A stretch of DNA of 5,298 bases from contig CAMJTZ010000139.1 of the NCBI GenBank assembly GCA_946408865.1, forward strand, positions 1-5,298, given 5' to 3'. Source of the stretch: an uncultured Clostridia bacterium. Lineage in GTDB: Bacteria > Bacillota_A > Clostridia > Christensenellales > Aristaeellaceae. Positions 1 through 5,298 of the stretch are shown here, piece after piece. The position numbers were made by a program, and so were the translations under genes. The notes under the pieces are model-generated. The model was not told where the DNA came from. It did no database searches and worked only from the letters and a program-made list of their open reading frames with translations. Every line of letters starts with the position of its first letter. The first letter of the stretch is position 1.

Positions 1-1659
1 ACCTTTATACAGCAATCCCAGCATGGTAATGTCGTCAAATTGCGGCGCATCGCCGACAAACCTGTCAATATGCTTCCGGACCGTGGGCAGTAGTTTTTCA
101 GGAGTTGCATCCGGATCTTCATTCAGCGCTTCCAGCATTCGTTCATTGCCGAACAGCTCGTCGTGGGCGTTGGTAGCCTCGGCCACTCCGTCCGTATAGA
201 CAAACAGGCTGTCGCCCGGGTGCAGTTCGAATTCATGTTCCCTGAAGCGCATTCCCTTCATGGTTGCCACAGCGGGAGAATGACGGTAGATCACCAGCTC
301 ATATTCTCCGCCTGCCCGCCGCAGTGCGGGATGTTCATGTCCGGCGTTGGCGGCCAGGCCTTTGCCTGTGGTCATGTCAAGGATTGCAAACCATACGGTT
401 ACAAACAGTTCCGCATCGTTTCCCTCACAGAGCTGTTCATTTACATAACTCAGGATCTCGGCAGGTCCGCCGCCCATCAGCGCCCGGTTCTTGATAAGCG
501 TCTTGGCAATTACCATGAACAGTGCAGCCGGTACGCCCTTGCCGGATACGTCTGCCATGACGAGGCCTAAATGGTTTTCATCAATCAGGAAGAAATCGTA
601 GAAGTCGCCGCCCACTTCCTTGGCCGGGGTCATGGTGGCGTAAATATCGATTTCTTTCCTGTCGGGGAAAGCCGGGAAAATACGGGGCAGCATATCCGCC
701 TGGATCTGGGTGGCCACATTGAGCTCCGCCCCGATCCGTTCCTTCTCCGCGGTTACGGTGGCCAGATTGTCCATATAATCAATCAGGCGGATCTCCATTT
801 CCCGGGTTTCCTGATAGAGCAGGCCGATTTCGTCCCTCGTGTGAATGGGAAGATTAATCACATCCCCGCTGGTGATCTTTCCCCCATGGCTGCCGAACTC
901 TCCCACCGCCTTCGAAAGCATCGAGATCGGTTTGGTTACGGTCCGGGACATCAGATACATGACCAGCACGCTGGCTGTGAGTCCCAGGATGATGGCATAG
1001 GTCAGAAGCCGGATCAGGAAGGCGTTGCGGTCTCTCATGACCTTTGTCATATCAATGTCCACGCCCACGCAGGCGACCGGTTCCCCGGCGCTGTTCAGCA
1101 CAGGCTCATACCCGGAAGAGAGCCAGCCGAAATCGGTCATGCTGACCGTCGGTTCAATCCGCTCGTTATCGGTTTTCCTCTCAAAGCCCTCCGCGTCCGC
1201 CTCGACGAGGCCCATGATCCACAGCGGCTCATCCGGATCAAGAACGTACATGCTCTCATGCCTGTCCGCCGGCATATGCAGCATGTATATGTATTTCGCA
1301 TCCTGCAGGTCACGCAGCTTGGACATGGTTTTCCGAAGGGACTGCACTTCTTCGAGCCAGCCGTTTTCCGCCAGACAGTCCTCAATCATCTGTTCGTCTT
1401 CCGCCTCTTCGGCCCGGTTTCGGATTTCCTGATATTCCGGCGTGCTGAGGAAGTCTCTCAGGGCTCCGATCCGGTCTCCGTTCAGCAGGGAAGACACCGT
1501 GGCGGCTGTTTCTACGGTTTCCACCCGATAAAACTCATCCACCTGAGACGTGTTCGCCCAGTACGCAATGGCAATCAGACCCCCGGCGATTGCCAGCACC
1601 AGAAACAGGAGAAGGCCATTCACCCGATGGGAGACAGACTGTCTTCTTTTTTGTTTCAT
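1..1659 (-). CDS. Membrane-bound SpoIIE/RsbU-type PP2C serine phosphatase with Cache-like sensor and HAMP domain (3' end cut by window edge)
   Basis: Reading down from the ATG at 1659, 553 codons stay open to base 1, so the stop lies outside the window. Seen in the translation: a basic N-terminus (MKQKRRQ), a membrane helix at about residues 14-35, an extracytoplasmic region at about 37-213, a second helix at about 214-236, a HAMP-like stretch at about 237-300, a charged linker ending in the motif ATQIQADMLP (316-325), then a PP2C/SpoIIE domain from about 330. The metal-binding acidic motifs are intact: GGDFYD (350-355), DVSGKG (370-375), NAGHEHP (438-444), YTDGV (488-492) and FDDIT (541-545). 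Family members end soon after the last motif, so few residues are probably missing. Known family role: dephosphorylation of phosphoserine/threonine on STAS-domain anti-anti-sigma proteins under control of a sensor. The substrate and ligand here are unknown. The gene starts 21 bases after the MATE-kinase fusion, its probable partner. Fold assignment is near certain; the target is inference. Confidence 0.95.
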   Translation of the reverse strand, partial: MKQKRRQSVSHRVNGLLLFLVLAIAGGLIAIAYWANTSQVDEFYRVETVETAATVSSLLNGDRIGALRDFLSTPEYQEIRNRAEEAEDEQMIEDCLAENGWLEEVQSLRKTMSKLRDLQDAKYIYMLHMPADRHESMYVLDPDEPLWIMGLVEADAEGFERKTDNERIEPTVSMTDFGWLSSGYEPVLNSAGEPVACVGVDIDMTKVMRDRNAFLIRLLTYAIILGLTASVLVMYLMSRTVTKPISMLSKAVGEFGSHGGKITSGDVINLPIHTRDEIGLLYQETREMEIRLIDYMDNLATVTAEKERIGAELNVATQIQADMLPRIFPAFPDRKEIDIYATMTPAKEVGGDFYDFFLIDENHLGLVMADVSGKGVPAALFMVIAKTLIKNRALMGGGPAEILSYVNEQLCEGNDAELFVTVWFAILDMTTGKGLAANAGHEHPALRRAGGEYELVIYRHSPAVATMKGMRFREHEFELHPGDSLFVYTDGVAEATNAHDELFGNERMLEALNEDPDATPEKLLPTVRKHIDRFVGDAPQFDDITMLGLLYKG

Positions 1660-1668
1660 GGTTTTCTG

Positions 1669-1676
1669 CTCCTCTC
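1669..1676 (-). promoter_or_regulatory. Ribosome binding site of the phosphatase gene
   Basis: On the minus strand GAGAGGAG lies 9 bases before the ATG at 1659, inside the 21-base gap after the TAG stop of the transporter gene. It is a strong Shine-Dalgarno match and supports this ATG as the start, giving a protein with a short basic N-terminus directly before the first membrane helix. Confidence 0.8.
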
Positions 1677-1680
1677 AGTC

Positions 1681-3477
1681 CTATTCGTAAACCACGGTCA
1701 TGGTGTTGAAACCCTGATAGTTCCGGTAATAGATGAATTTGCTCTGGCGGCGCACCATCATGACGCCGATGGAATCCATGATCGATGCCTCCATGTCCTT
1801 CTGGGCCTTCTCCATCCGCAGGTCCAGCGGATTGAAGAAAGGCGCGCTGTCCCGGATATGCAGCACATACTGCGGGCCGGGTTCAATCACCAGCACAATC
1901 TGAATATACTCGTCCTTCCTGCCGGTAAAGGCCTTCTGCATCGTGACCGCGCACAGTTCCTCCACGCCCAGCTGAATCTGCGCGGCCTTGCCCGGCGGAA
2001 TGCGGTTCTCATCGCAGAATTCCTCCACCTGCGCCAGCGCGGTCGCGAGTTCGCGGTTGTTGTTCGTCATCACGATCCGGCAGGCCCGTACGTTTTTGAA
2101 GGTGTCCTTCATTTTCCGCGTCCACAGAAACAGCTGGAAAATCAGAAGCGACAGCGCGGCGGTCAGCGGGAACACCCACCAGATCCTGGCCGGATCCAGG
2201 AGTCCGAAGAAAAGCGTGAAGGGGATCAGGCAGACCGCCTCCCGGAGCGCGGTGGCGATGAAGGTATACCATGTTTCCCCCCGGGCCTGACAATACCGCA
2301 GAAGAATCGACAGGATGCCTGTTAGCGGAGCGGATATCAGAAAGATGCGTATCGCCGGAACCGCCACGGCCAGCTGGGTCTCCTCCCGGAAGCCGAAAAA
2401 CAGCGCCGCGGGTCTCGCCAGAATCGCCAGCACGGCAGCCACCAGCGTTCCAAGCGCAATTCCGAGCTGCAGGCTCATCTTTTCGACCATGTGCAGGCTT
2501 TCCTGGTCCCTCTCCGCCGAAAACGTGGCGACCGCGGGCTGCATGGCGTCCCCGATGGCGGAATAGACGGGCATGGCAAGATAGCTGATATTCAGAATCA
2601 GATCATATACAGCCACATACAGCGTTCCGGGAATCAGCTCCCTGGCTCCCGCCCACATCAGCAGATGGTTCATCAGCAGCTGGGAGCAGAACTGGAACAC
2701 ATAGCCGATGGATGAGGCAAACCCCGTCCGGAAGGAAATCCGGAAATACCTTCTTGTCTCCTGCGGGCGGTCGTCTTTCACGCCGAAAATGACGCGGAAA
2801 TGGAGGGTGCCTTTTGCGCTGAAGAAATGAACGGTCAGAATACCCAGGCTGACCGCCTGGGCCGTGATGGTCGCCAGGGCCGCCCCCCGTACGCCCCATC
2901 CCGCGACCAGAACAAACAGGATATTCAGCACGACGTCCAGAATGCCTCCGGCCGTCATCGCCTGAGCCGCGCGCCGGGGGTCGTCGTCGTTCTGAACAAA
3001 GTAATACAGCATATAGCTGAAAAGCAGAATCGGGCTGGCTGTCAGCAGCGGACGCGCGTACTGCCTGCACATCGTCCAAAGCTCCGGATCCTCCTCGCTG
3101 GCCGCCAGAAGCCTGAGCAGGAAGTCAGGAAAAAGATTTCCTGCCAGGATCAGGAAAAGAGAAATCCCCCCCGTCCAGAAAGCAATCTTCCGGAAAAGCG
3201 CCGGCGTCAGCAGCTCCTCCCGCCTGGCGCACAGCTTTGCGTGCACGATGGAGCCCCCAATGCCGAAGCTCAGGGCGATCACGTTATAAAACAGGTATAT
3301 GGGCGTCACGATTCCGATGGCCGCGAGCGCCTTTTCTCCCAGCCGCTGCCCCACCGTCACTGCGTCCGCGATATTGGACAGCGACAGCGCCGCCGAGGAA
3401 ATCAGGGTGGGGATCAGCACCCGCAACAGCATATTGCGGGGGATGACCCATTTCTCGCTGGTTTTTTTCCAGGTCAT
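1681..3477 (-). CDS. MATE-family transporter fused to a C-terminal RsbW/SpoIIAB-like (HATPase_c_2) domain
   Basis: The product has 598 residues, whereas MATE transporters are usually about 450. Residues about 12-455 form the two homologous MATE halves (about 14-230 and 245-455) with many hydrophobic helices. The first half carries the family-like segment VGQRLGEKALAAIGIVTPI (42-60), and the second half the segment around AIGDAMQPAVATFSAERD (307-324). MATE proteins export cationic drugs or metabolites by Na+ or H+ antiport; the substrate here cannot be told. Residues about 468-598 resemble the anti-sigma-factor serine kinase ATPase fold: an N-box-like helix with EE at 506-507, a G1-like D-x-x-x-x-F-N-P at 543-550, and a G2-like IGVMMVRR at 570-577. 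Three usual residues are replaced: the N-box Asn by Val511, the N-box His by Lys515 and the G1 Gly by Ala545. With twelve membrane helices the domain would be cytoplasmic. The ATG at 3477 overlaps the preceding stop by four bases, so translation is probably coupled. The architecture is clear; whether the kinase domain is active is open. Confidence 0.93.
   Translation of the reverse strand: MTWKKTSEKWVIPRNMLLRVLIPTLISSAALSLSNIADAVTVGQRLGEKALAAIGIVTPIYLFYNVIALSFGIGGSIVHAKLCARREELLTPALFRKIAFWTGGISLFLILAGNLFPDFLLRLLAASEEDPELWTMCRQYARPLLTASPILLFSYMLYYFVQNDDDPRRAAQAMTAGGILDVVLNILFVLVAGWGVRGAALATITAQAVSLGILTVHFFSAKGTLHFRVIFGVKDDRPQETRRYFRISFRTGFASSIGYVFQFCSQLLMNHLLMWAGARELIPGTLYVAVYDLILNISYLAMPVYSAIGDAMQPAVATFSAERDQESLHMVEKMSLQLGIALGTLVAAVLAILARPAALFFGFREETQLAVAVPAIRIFLISAPLTGILSILLRYCQARGETWYTFIATALREAVCLIPFTLFFGLLDPARIWWVFPLTAALSLLIFQLFLWTRKMKDTFKNVRACRIVMTNNNRELATALAQVEEFCDENRIPPGKAAQIQLGVEELCAVTMQKAFTGRKDEYIQIVLVIEPGPQYVLHIRDSAPFFNPLDLRMEKAQKDMEASIMDSIGVMMVRRQSKFIYYRNYQGFNTMTVVYE
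1684..2076 (-). other. Divergent anti-sigma-kinase-like ATPase domain within the transporter gene
   Basis: This part encodes residues 468-598 of the fusion protein. It begins right after the last membrane helix and a basic linker (TRKMKDTFKNVR, 453-464). Aligned by eye to SpoIIAB/RsbW, Glu507 sits at the catalytic-base position and Asp543 at the conserved Asp of the G1 box. The metal-chelating N-box Asn position is Val511, the following His position is Lys515, the DxG glycine is Ala545, and the glycine-rich G2 loop is reduced to one glycine (571). The fold is probably kept, but nucleotide binding may be weak or lost. Confidence 0.8.
3474..3477 (-). promoter_or_regulatory. ATGA start/stop overlap coupling the DUF2156 and MATE-kinase genes
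   Basis: On the minus strand the bases ATGA combine the ATG of the transporter with the TGA of the preceding gene. A GAGGTG ribosome binding site at 3483-3488 lies 5 bases upstream, inside the end of the preceding gene. This arrangement is typical of translational coupling and of products needed together. Confidence 0.85.
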
Positions 3478-4325
3478 TTCAGCACCTCATATACTTTCAG
3501 CAGATCAACAGGAGAAAGCAGCGTCTTTTCCCTCCGCAGACCGTCCAGCCCCAGATCCTCCTCGATATCGATCAGCGGATACTGAGGCAGCAGGACTTTG
3601 GCAAATTCATGAATACAGACGGCGGTCACATCCGGGGAGATCAGCTCCTCCCGCCGGAACATGGTCAGGGTAAAGATTTTCGGATCGCGTTCATAGCCAA
3701 GAAAAAACGCTGCAGGTCCTTCCTCGGTCTCTACCAGCACGCCCCGGAAGCCCAGTTCGCGCAGATGGCTCAGTTCAAAGGAAAGCACCAGCTCGTCTCC
3801 CGGCCCGACAGGTGCGGACGGCAGCGCGGCGTCCGCCGCGATTTTCCGAAGGCGGGGCTCATCCTCGAAGGAGATTTCCCTGACCGTGTATGGGCTGATT
3901 TTGCTGAAATGCCTGCACTTGTATCGGAAGCTGTGGGTCACGGGGAACCCCGGACTCAGAGCCAGCGCGGGGGTGGAAAGGATATACTCGCTCAGATCCG
4001 CCCGGTACAGATGTTTCCATCCTCTCTTCTCCAGCGCCTCCGCCTGCGTCTCCGTCGCGTACACAAAACGGGCAGGACGCTCCGTCCGGGCCGTTTCTTC
4101 CATAAACGCCGCGCATTTGTCCTCCCGGCCGCATGGCATATAATATGCCTTATCATGCTGGCTTCGGATGACATAAAAGTCTTCATCCCCGCCAATCGTC
4201 ATCCCGTAGGTCTCCGCCCAGGTCAGCAGAGACGGAAATGTCAGTGCGGAAAAAGGTTGAACATCGGCATTTCTGCATTTTTCAATCCAGGCCCGGTCCG
4301 ACAGCTCCAAAGGACGAAACAGCAT
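3474..4325 (-). CDS. DUF2156 protein (phosphatidylglycerol lysyltransferase C-terminal-like domain), soluble
   Basis: The 283-residue product has no membrane segment or signal peptide, so it should be cytoplasmic. The family call rests on overall layout and on the C-terminal signature EEDLGLDGLRREK (255-267) followed by SPVDLLKVYEV (271-281), which matches the E-DLG--GLR--K...P...K-Y ending of DUF2156 proteins. The central stretch with HSFRYKCRHFSKI (131-143) corresponds to the region that usually reads as a basic K/R-N-x-x-x-x-F segment. DUF2156 is a double GNAT-like fold. In MprF it transfers lysine or alanine from aminoacyl-tRNA to phosphatidylglycerol, but short soluble members have no settled function, so no substrate is claimed. 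The ATG at 4325 has only a weak ribosome site (GAGAAG, 6 bases upstream) and lies 44 bases after the acetyltransferase stop. The stop overlaps the transporter start. Confidence 0.88.
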   Translation of the reverse strand: MLFRPLELSDRAWIEKCRNADVQPFSALTFPSLLTWAETYGMTIGGDEDFYVIRSQHDKAYYMPCGREDKCAAFMEETARTERPARFVYATETQAEALEKRGWKHLYRADLSEYILSTPALALSPGFPVTHSFRYKCRHFSKISPYTVREISFEDEPRLRKIAADAALPSAPVGPGDELVLSFELSHLRELGFRGVLVETEEGPAAFFLGYERDPKIFTLTMFRREELISPDVTAVCIHEFAKVLLPQYPLIDIEEDLGLDGLRREKTLLSPVDLLKVYEVLK

Positions 4326-4369
4326 ATTCAGCTTCTCACTCTCTAAATCATTTTTTCTTTTCCGTCGGT

Positions 4370-5209
4370 TTATTCCAGCGAAAAAGGAAACCAGAAATCC
4401 TGGGGGATAATCTGATCCGCCGCCCGGAAGCTCCCGAGGGAAAACACTCTTTCCTCTCCCGGACCGTTCTGAAACAGCGGCGTGCGAACCAGGTAAACCG
4501 ATGCGGGAATTCTTTCCGTCATCGGGATCAGCGCCTCTTTCCAGTCTTCACCGCAGGCAAGCAGCTCGCTGACAACACAGCGCCTGTCCTGAACGTAAGC
4601 CGCCATCAGCGCCCGGCCGGCCCGCCAGTAGGACGTGCCGTACGTTTCTGACAGTTCATACCATGTCTGCGGATAAACAGAATGAGGAAGCCCTGTAAGC
4701 GCCGTCTCCCGCAGCTTCGCGTAGGCCGCCGCGGTCAGACGCGCCGCCTCCAGCGGTGAAGAATCCGGAAGGCTTTCCTTTGTAACCCTGGCCTCCCGCA
4801 GCCTGCTCAGCGGCCTGAAACGGCGTTCCCGCAAATAAACCGGTATCAGGGACGGCTCTGACGGCACCAGCGTCGCGCTGTCCGAAACCGACAGCGCCTG
4901 ATCCAGCGCCGCGCTTTGAAGCTTCAGGCCAATCCGGCATCCGCGGTATTCCGGCAGGGTGGAAAGCGCGTACAGATAACTGGTTGAAACCGGCGTCTTC
5001 CCATCCGGCAGGTGATATACACCGGAAACGATGTATTCCGCCGATACGGGCTTCCCTTCCGTCTCCGCGACCAGGCAGCCGTCCTCCCGCAGAAAGAGCC
5101 TGTAAAAGGCGTCAATGTCTTCCTCCGGATCGTGAAATCCCGCCTTCCAGATCTCCCGAAGCGCGGGAAGATCTTCCGGCTTCCAGGGGCGAATCACCGT
5201 TTCCTTCAA
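4370..5209 (-). CDS. GNAT-family N-acetyltransferase
   Basis: A 279-residue protein without membrane segments. The first half (to about residue 140) is GNAT-like: it opens with IRPWKPEDLPALREIW (6-21), a typical first strand and helix. It then has a strand with CLVAETEGKPVSAEYIVSG (45-63), and motif A at 80-98 (ALSTLPEYRGCRIGLKLQ), which binds the acetyl-CoA pyrophosphate. In the usual R-G-x-G-[IV]-G loop the second glycine is Arg92. A family-like LVPSEPSLIPVYLRERRF (114-131) follows. The second half (about 150-279) is less distinctive and ends in WFPFSLE; it may be a second, degenerate GNAT-like half. The acceptor substrate is unknown. The first codon is TTG (5209) with AAGGA 10 bases upstream. 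A GTG at 5197 is a rival start that would give M-IRPWKPEDL, the more typical length of the N-terminus. An in-frame stop just upstream excludes a longer start. It is probably in the operon with the downstream DUF2156 gene, 44 bases away. Confidence 0.9.
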   Translation of the reverse strand: MKETVIRPWKPEDLPALREIWKAGFHDPEEDIDAFYRLFLREDGCLVAETEGKPVSAEYIVSGVYHLPDGKTPVSTSYLYALSTLPEYRGCRIGLKLQSAALDQALSVSDSATLVPSEPSLIPVYLRERRFRPLSRLREARVTKESLPDSSPLEAARLTAAAYAKLRETALTGLPHSVYPQTWYELSETYGTSYWRAGRALMAAYVQDRRCVVSELLACGEDWKEALIPMTERIPASVYLVRTPLFQNGPGEERVFSLGSFRAADQIIPQDFWFPFSLE

Positions 5210-5219
5210 TGCTTTTCAT

Positions 5220-5224
5220 TCCTT
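5220..5224 (-). promoter_or_regulatory. Ribosome binding site of the acetyltransferase gene
   Basis: AAGGA follows directly on the TGA at 5227-5225 and lies 10 bases before the TTG at 5209. An ATG at 5219 overlaps it but is in another frame and too close to it. A second AAGGA at 5202-5206 lies only 4 bases before the alternative GTG start at 5197. The sequence alone does not settle which start is used. Confidence 0.5.
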
Positions 5225-5298
5225 TCAGGGATATTCTCCAGGCCGCCGGCGGCCAAAGCACTTCAGGGCGACGAAAGCCCCGGAACCCACTTCCCCGA
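5225..5298 (-). CDS. Possible C-terminal end of an upstream gene (partial)
   Basis: Read on the minus strand from 5296, 23 codons stay open and end in TGA at 5227-5225, giving a tail GEVGSGAFVALKCFG followed by RRRPGEYP. The stop sits 15 bases before the acetyltransferase start and next to its ribosome site, a spacing typical of operon neighbours. Codon third positions are mostly G or C, as in the other genes. The stretch is too short to recognise a family. Another frame is also open through this region and runs into the acetyltransferase gene out of frame, so this call is tentative; the region could equally be a leader. Confidence 0.35.
   Translation of the reverse strand, partial: GEVGSGAFVALKCFGRRRPGEYP
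5241..5254. repeat. Perfect 14-base GC palindrome
   Basis: GGCCGCCGGCGGCC is its own reverse complement. It has no loop and no following T-run on either strand, so it is not a standard terminator. It lies 31 bases upstream of the acetyltransferase start and within the possible end of an upstream gene. It could be a protein-binding site or simply a product of arginine and glycine codons in GC-rich DNA. Confidence 0.4.

Follow-up and report, generated by a model that had tools for sequence, protein, structure and literature searches.

We analysed a 5,298-nucleotide stretch of DNA from an uncultured Clostridia bacterium of the Aristaeellaceae (contig CAMJTZ010000139.1, positions 1 to 5,298), referred to below as the window, which encodes a MATE transporter fused to an RsbW/SpoIIAB-like HATPase domain and, beside it, a receptor-type PP2C phosphatase. 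We found that these genes belong to a module that is real and widespread. We propose, with a probability of about one half, that the module is a membrane partner switch with an exporter as its output, in which the kinase-like domain, apparently disarmed, would act as a docking receptor for an unphosphorylated STAS protein. The proposal draws on the order and conservation of the genes, on the motifs lost and kept, on adjacent intact kinases and on STAS proteins with conserved serines.

The four genes of the window all lie on the minus strand and follow one another in the order GNAT, LPG_synthase_C, MATE-HATPase_c_2 fusion, sensor-HAMP-PP2C. The LPG_synthase_C and fusion genes overlap by 4 bases, and a gap of 21 bases separates the fusion from the PP2C gene. 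An earlier sequence-only reading had described the last two as a MATE protein with an RsbW/SpoIIAB-like C-terminus followed after those 21 bases, on one strand, by a sensor-HAMP-PP2C protein; the open reading frames (ORFs) and Pfam bear this out, the HAMP match being weak. The features, with the support for each, are as follows.

1681..3477, minus strand: MATE transporter with a degenerate RsbW/SpoIIAB-like HATPase domain, 598 aa (ORF list, Pfam, AlphaFold2 (AF2))
2104..3447, minus strand: MATE domain, residues 11-458, with the fold of PfMATE and DinF-BH
1687..2085, minus strand: pseudo-HATPase_c_2 domain, residues 465-597, the proposed STAS receptor (Pfam, motif alignment, AF2)
1927..1962, minus strand: N-box EELCAVTMQKAF, residues 506-517, with E507 kept and V511 at the Mg-chelating Asn position (motif alignment)
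1..1659, minus strand: sensor-HAMP-PP2C (SpoIIE/RsbU-type) phosphatase, 553 aa, open at the window edge (ORF list, Pfam)
16..579, minus strand: PP2C (SpoIIE) catalytic domain, residues 361-548 (Pfam 5.1e-45, motifs)
811..954, minus strand: HAMP linker, residues 236-283, a weak match (Pfam 16.1 bits, under the cut-off of 25)
3474..4325, minus strand: LPG_synthase_C (DUF2156) protein with an aminoacyl-tRNA-transferase fold (Pfam, Foldseek)
4370..5209, minus strand: GNAT acetyltransferase (Pfam)

The kinase-like domain of the transporter

The fusion protein matches both MatE (8e-26) and HATPase_c_2 (PF13581; 4.9e-08, 33.5 bits against a cut-off of 27.4, residues 472-592) in Pfam. In its AF2 model (pLDDT 93.0, pTM 0.90), the first strand of the HATPase domain begins 6 residues past the last MATE helix. 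Because the 50 rows of VIA-align spanned the MATE part only, we take the fold of residues 465-597 from Pfam, from the alignment to intact kinases and from the secondary structure of the AF2 model; a direct sequence comparison of this domain with PDB chains gave no match below E 0.35.

A profile of the fusion, applied to public genomes, yielded 98 loci encoding a relative, of which we used the best 80 (given L numbers below). Most are from Clostridia, with 3 Synergistaceae loci and 1 Kiritimatiellia metagenome-assembled genome (MAG), and the proteins are 27-99% identical. When 7996 candidates were scored, 43 proteins were found at E <= 0.001; 26 of these aligned over at least 96% of the fusion with E < 1e-77, and 25 of the 26 have both Pfam labels.

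We counted motifs in 80 fused domains (the window and 79 loci) and in the intact kinases encoded at the same loci (33 fused to PP2C and 28 free). The asparagine corresponding to RsbW Asn53 and SpoIIAB Asn50 is absent from all 80 MATE-fused domains (A43 V26 T5 S4 L1 I1), whereas 33/33 PP2C-fused and 28/28 free kinases keep it; a partial sequence from L022, outside the count, likewise has V at this position. The glycine of the DxG motif is found in 0/80 fused domains (A76 T3 D1) and the first lid glycine (SpoIIAB G107) in 1/80 (A41 S34 T2 G1 L1 E1), compared with 61/61 intact kinases in each case. In contrast to these losses, the catalytic, STAS-facing glutamate (SpoIIAB Glu46, RsbW Glu49) is present in 80/80. 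SpoIIAB chelates Mg through Asn50 and uses Glu46 as its catalytic base (PMC10345196, in excerpt), and RsbW Glu49 touches Ser56 of RsbV (PMC7340262, in excerpt). Thus, much of the ATP/Mg side of the domain has decayed, whereas the residue that faces the STAS serine has not. These data suggest that the MATE-fused domain is probably not the kinase of the system but, judging by its motifs, a pseudokinase. It is not a decaying remnant, since it is as conserved as the transporter that carries it (mean pairwise identity 0.403 versus 0.394 across 83 aligned sequences).

The sequence-only reading had instead taken the transporter's domain for the active serine kinase, working against the PP2C. The PF13581 match above the cut-off and the universal glutamate would suit that role, and no other kinase is encoded in the window or fused to its PP2C allele. 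Nevertheless, the asparagine and the DxG glycine are lost in 80/80 domains and the first lid glycine in 79/80, and an intact RsbW-type kinase lies in the same cluster at 52/80 loci. On the motif counts for these three residues we rejected an active kinase, and we regard this explanation as very improbable.

Two further observations concern the fusion protein. An arginine in the lid is invariant in the intact kinases (61/61) and outside the five commonest residues in the fused domain; its position in the alignment differs from that of SpoIIAB Arg105. In transmembrane helix 5 (TM5; window 2923-2937, fusion residues 181-185), an Asn/Asp pair, which we take to have an ion-site role in MATE proteins, is swapped in the clade whose HATPase domain has lost the asparagine (D181 in 61/61, N185 in 60/61). 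Plain MATEs have N in 17/18 and D in 18/18, and fusions that keep the asparagine are mixed.

The operon and the other switch parts

We next considered gene content, defining a cluster as genes on the same strand with gaps of <=400 bases and applying iterated hidden Markov models (HMMs) to the ORFs of the 80 loci. PP2C is in the cluster at 77/80 loci, LPG_synthase_C at 54, a formyltransferase (FMT) at 47, and one or other of the two enzymes at 75. An intact kinase, PP2C-fused or free, is present at 52, STAS at 31, and GNAT at 7, these being the loci nearest the window. Downstream of the fusion, a same-strand PP2C is found in 74 of the 75 loci with the catalytic part in view. In 73 of those 74 it has at least three of the four catalytic motifs (L059 has one gene in between); L043, where the first PP2C lacks the motifs but is SpoIIE-family by Pfam and a second PP2C lies behind, is counted among the 74. 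Only L011 has no PP2C downstream of the fusion. Outside the 75 are L034, L036, L050 and L075, in which the contig ends after a matching N-terminal PP2C part, and L040, in which it stops earlier. The genes that flank the module are unrelated to one another, the commonest family occurring 3 times in the 58 flanking ORFs scanned (of 92), and the families listed for those 58 (25 of 53) include no sigma factor. As a control, plain MATE genes were inspected by eye: in 5 genomes, none of the listed PF01554 matches other than fusions lies within 5 kb of PF07228. The linkage of the fusion to PP2C is far from chance in the window's subfamily. Organisms with the module include Coprococcus catus, Hungatella hathewayi, Butyrivibrio and Oscillibacter, among isolates and rumen or gut MAGs.

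The window's own phosphatase matches SpoIIE (PF07228) at 5.1e-45 and contains all of the catalytic motifs GGDFYDFF, ADVSGKGV, YTDGVAEA and DDITML. Its top NCBIfam match is SiaA, yet the score of 58.6 bits is far below the cut-off of 700. The same operon is carried by L001-L003 (MAGs from sheep rumen, from goat reticulum and one without stated source), whose fusion is 98-99% identical in protein sequence. In sister alleles of the L001 type, the PP2C has 692 aa and includes PF13581 (C-terminal kinase match of L001, 3.1e-23). The 14 best protein matches to the window's PP2C are 95-99% identical to it; 13 have 560 aa and 1 has 568 aa, and a PF13581 kinase is in none of the 14. Because these near-identical proteins are mostly 560 aa long, the window's PP2C most likely ends ~7 residues beyond the edge and has no fused kinase; a fused kinase as in L001-L003 was rejected on the same matches. 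The kinase for this allele is probably encoded in trans or downstream. The DNA of the window is 98-100% identical to L001-L003 up to about position 700, then ~79% identical through the PP2C catalytic domain. This abrupt drop (window 1-700 versus L001:10337-12415) gives the locus mosaic PP2C alleles. An assembly chimera at the window edge is disfavoured, as the window-type PP2C occurs in 14 proteins and 18 contigs (12 without stated source).

Other loci encode the remaining parts of a partner switch. L046 and L072 have the order STAS, MATE fusion, formyltransferase, PP2C, free kinase (in L046, PF01740 4.2e-14, PF00551 1.2e-11 and PF13581 7.3e-23), and 59/61 intact kinases share the strand of the fusion and are <=6 kb from it. 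A free cluster kinase matches RsbW (6m36) weakly, at E 0.0014. The STAS profile matches the structures of RsbV (6m36) and SpoIIAA (1th8/1til), and SSAG, with both serines, is present in 33/33 aligned cluster STAS sequences. PF01740 was found in 33/34 genomes, and the cluster-type STAS profile has matches in 15/15 relatives' genomes searched. The membrane partner-switching setting envisaged in the sequence-only reading is therefore upheld by the STAS genes in 31/80 clusters, by the conserved SSAG and by those 15 genomes. Neither a STAS domain nor a sigma-factor family was found in the window's four main ORFs by the Pfam scan. The suggestion that the partner is encoded elsewhere fits the window's clade, since the genomes of its three nearest relatives, L001-L003, have their cluster-type STAS genes on other contigs.

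These STAS genes also bear on an alternative in which the transporter is a sensor or a sink: the pseudo-domain would capture or release STAS according to the state of transport, and the switch would have its output elsewhere, in a sigma factor or a different enzyme. Such an arrangement would give the same genes and motifs. It would also suit the presence of cluster-type STAS in 15/15 genomes searched, on other contigs in the three nearest relatives, and the STAS-APH kinase fusions in some clusters could be other outputs. However, the PP2C already provides the operon with a dedicated receptor, the enzymes co-encoded with the MATE protein suggest that the exporter is what merits control, and no sigma factor appears among the families listed for the 58 flanking ORFs. 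We consider this alternative unlikely.

Several unusual STAS neighbours were seen. Near the cluster, L032:13860-15041 and L027:6791-7996 each encode STAS joined to an APH-family kinase, and STAS-matching ORFs of ~400 aa stand beside the clusters of L026, L035, L049, L051, L071 and L074. A 201-aa protein (403 aa in L121) adjoins a high-scoring cluster-type STAS in L116:4057-4662, L085:871-1476 and L121:10415-11626. The Pfam scan of this protein from the three loci gave no significant match; with its N-box-like EEMMGMM (L116, L085), it resembles a further HATPase without the asparagine. In Hungatella hathewayi DSM 13479, an ORF of 1260 aa directly upstream of the STAS gene (L072:5849-9631) has no Pfam match at E 0.01.

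Single chains of LPG_C-MATE-HATPase (P0022) and of FMT-LPG_C (L048:8322-9998) connect these enzymes with the transporter. L009:1-2190 reads LPG-MATE and is truncated by the contig start. The window's LPG_synthase_C protein matches PF09924 at 1.1e-07, and Foldseek matches it to the aminoacyl-tRNA transferase fold (2hqy, 4v35, 5vrv, FemX).

Sister fusions and the origin of the module

We picked by eye, among the matches listed, 40 further large PF13581 proteins from 32 genomes; 32 are MATE-HATPase fusions and 8 are not. These sister fusions keep the asparagine (32/32) and the G1 aspartate (32/32), and 9/32 have the DxG glycine; at two lid positions, glycine is in the minority or outside the five commonest residues. 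One further fusion that keeps the asparagine, in L077, is outside the 32. With PP2C neighbours defined by an HMM score >60 within <=3 kb on either strand, contig ends not being allowed for, a PP2C is beside just one of the 32 (L112). Neighbours of L114 and L136 score 67-68 bits with the PP2C model, yet the L114 neighbour, read by eye, is a GGDEF protein.

These data rule out that the fusion is always linked to PP2C. A predominance of fusions with no PP2C beside them, which would have refuted the sequence-only reading, is not seen in the window's subfamily (74/75 have a PP2C) and is seen in the sister subfamily (1/32); since the sister fusions mostly lack a PP2C, the linkage is specific to the window's clade and not a property of all MATE-HATPase fusions.

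By eye, the asparagine-keeping fusion L114:6593-8371 stands beside a sensor-GGDEF protein (the neighbour of L136:4558-6336 has the same length and a similar score), and L113:3708-5453 beside a PIG-L-like deacetylase and a glycosyltransferase-like protein.

The sister family also bears on a second alternative, in which the pseudo-domain is structural only, or senses some other ligand unrelated to STAS, while the PP2C acts on another pathway and is merely co-transcribed. That 49/80 clusters are without STAS, and that 31/32 sister fusions are without a PP2C neighbour (contig ends not being allowed for), would agree with it. Yet co-transcription alone hardly explains a PP2C in 74/75 loci at 27-99% identity, together with a recurring intact kinase and STAS, and we think it improbable that the domain has nothing to do with STAS.

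A quick maximum-likelihood tree of the MATE part, with SH-aLRT support only, was built from 110 rows (61 fusions that have lost the asparagine, 31 that keep it and 18 plain MATEs); 19 rows of the first group and 1 of the second were left out as near-copies or cut. Each group forms one branch, with SH-aLRT values of 100, 90 and 95, respectively. The tree thus suggests that MATE and HATPase were joined once, and that a single later event brought both the loss of the asparagine and the gain of the PP2C operon. The Synergistaceae and Kiritimatiellia loci (L030, L036, L040, L076) nest among Clostridia in this tree, which suggests transfer between phyla or MAG contamination.

A proposed membrane switch

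In the switch that we propose, an outside signal received by the extracytoplasmic sensor of the PP2C would lead to dephosphorylation of the STAS protein. The pseudo-domain on the MATE C-terminus, predicted from its lost Mg/ATP-site residues to make no use of ATP, would dock the unphosphorylated STAS only, and docking may gate the transporter from its cytoplasmic face, opening or closing it. A true RsbW-type kinase, PP2C-fused in many relatives and free in others, would rephosphorylate STAS and so reset the system. The cargo may be made or modified by the co-encoded LPG_synthase_C protein, the formyltransferase or both. An apparently disarmed kinase domain on an exporter, with the phosphatase and often the true kinase and STAS protein of a switch as neighbours, suggests that the switch controls the transporter and not a gene-expression factor.

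Several observations weigh against this proposal. Within the fused domain, the G1 aspartate is retained in 58/80 and the last lid glycine in 79/80, and motif loss is no proof of lost nucleotide binding. Tyr118 of RsbW, which bonds RsbV, corresponds to an aromatic residue in 58/61 intact kinases, but in the pseudo-domain Leu, Met or Asp is usual at this position, an argument against an interface identical to that of RsbW and RsbV; three further RsbV-bonding residues of RsbW, R23, D42 and K44, are conserved in neither the MATE-fused nor the intact group. The other parts are not always in view. STAS is within the cluster in just 31/80 loci, and 28/80 clusters have no visible intact kinase, which contig ends explain in some cases and not in all. 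A STAS gene near the fusion, for which the sequence-only reading suggested looking, was found in the same cluster for those 31 relatives but not within the 8.5-10 kb flanks of the operon in L001-L003. Moreover, STAS is found <=3 kb from 3/32 of the asparagine-keeping sister fusions (L123, L147, L151). Finally, as the fusions that have lost the asparagine form one clade, this loss and the PP2C linkage count as one event and not as a repeated correlation.

The proposed switch has the PP2C, STAS and HATPase_c_2 kinase families in common with the RsbU/RsbV/RsbW and SpoIIE/SpoIIAA/SpoIIAB circuits. It differs from these sigma-factor circuits in two ways: no sigma factor was seen in the window's four main ORFs or among the families listed for the flanking ORFs, and the transporter has a further, degenerate HATPase copy attached to it. 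Among working systems, SiaABCD of Pseudomonas aeruginosa comes closest; it consists of the PP2C SiaA (presumably membrane-bound), the kinase SiaB, SiaC and the diguanylate cyclase SiaD. There, the phosphorylation state of SiaC, a direct activator of an enzyme, depends on the PP2C and the kinase; as would be the case here, the phosphorylated protein resembles anti-sigma antagonists and the directly bound output is not a sigma factor (PMC7647112 and PMC8457831, in excerpt). The output of SiaABCD is a cyclase bound via a stalk, whereas here it would be a MATE protein bound via a kinase-like domain. In SypE/SypA of Vibrio fischeri, a single protein with kinase and phosphatase parts acts on STAS (excerpt of PMC8256260), which may be compared with the 33 PP2C-HATPase fusions found here; no transporter is known in that system.

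Two transporter systems also invite comparison. MprF, a flippase with an LPG synthase C domain, likewise pairs an aminoacyl-transferase fold with a membrane transporter, and the model of the window's LPG_synthase_C protein matches MprF domains 4v35, 5vrv and 7duw, with 2hqy closest. In the present module, however, the transporter is a MATE protein (MOP), and a gene of its own usually encodes the transferase, P0022 combining the two in one chain. MlaFB, in which we know of no PP2C or kinase, differs in transporter class and has no HATPase_c_2 domain. There, the small STAS protein MlaB binds and stabilises the ABC transporter ATPase of a lipid transporter (excerpt of PMC7367683). Among the listings and abstract openings from searches of open-access papers, nothing was recognisable as a MATE-HATPase fusion or its operon.

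Partner switching is known mainly as a means of sigma-factor control. SypA is a non-sigma STAS switch whose target is unknown (PMC8256260, in excerpt); here, the likely target would be physically marked, as a transporter bearing a version of the switch's own kinase that appears to be disarmed. We suggest, more tentatively than for the switch itself, that a relative of anti-sigma kinases that has lost its ATP site and is fused to a transporter represents a previously unrecognised class of output that turns a transcription switch into direct control of export. According to this view, the fusion arose once from plain MATEs; in one branch the domain may have stayed semi-intact, and in the other, which gained a receptor phosphatase, a kinase and cargo-modifying enzymes of its own, it may have become a pure STAS receptor. 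Because the module is present in isolates as well as in MAGs, the gating of a membrane transporter by STAS is directly testable. If the proposal is true, it would give MATE proteins that are annotated only as efflux proteins a cargo pathway, built on aminoacyl- and formyl-transferases.

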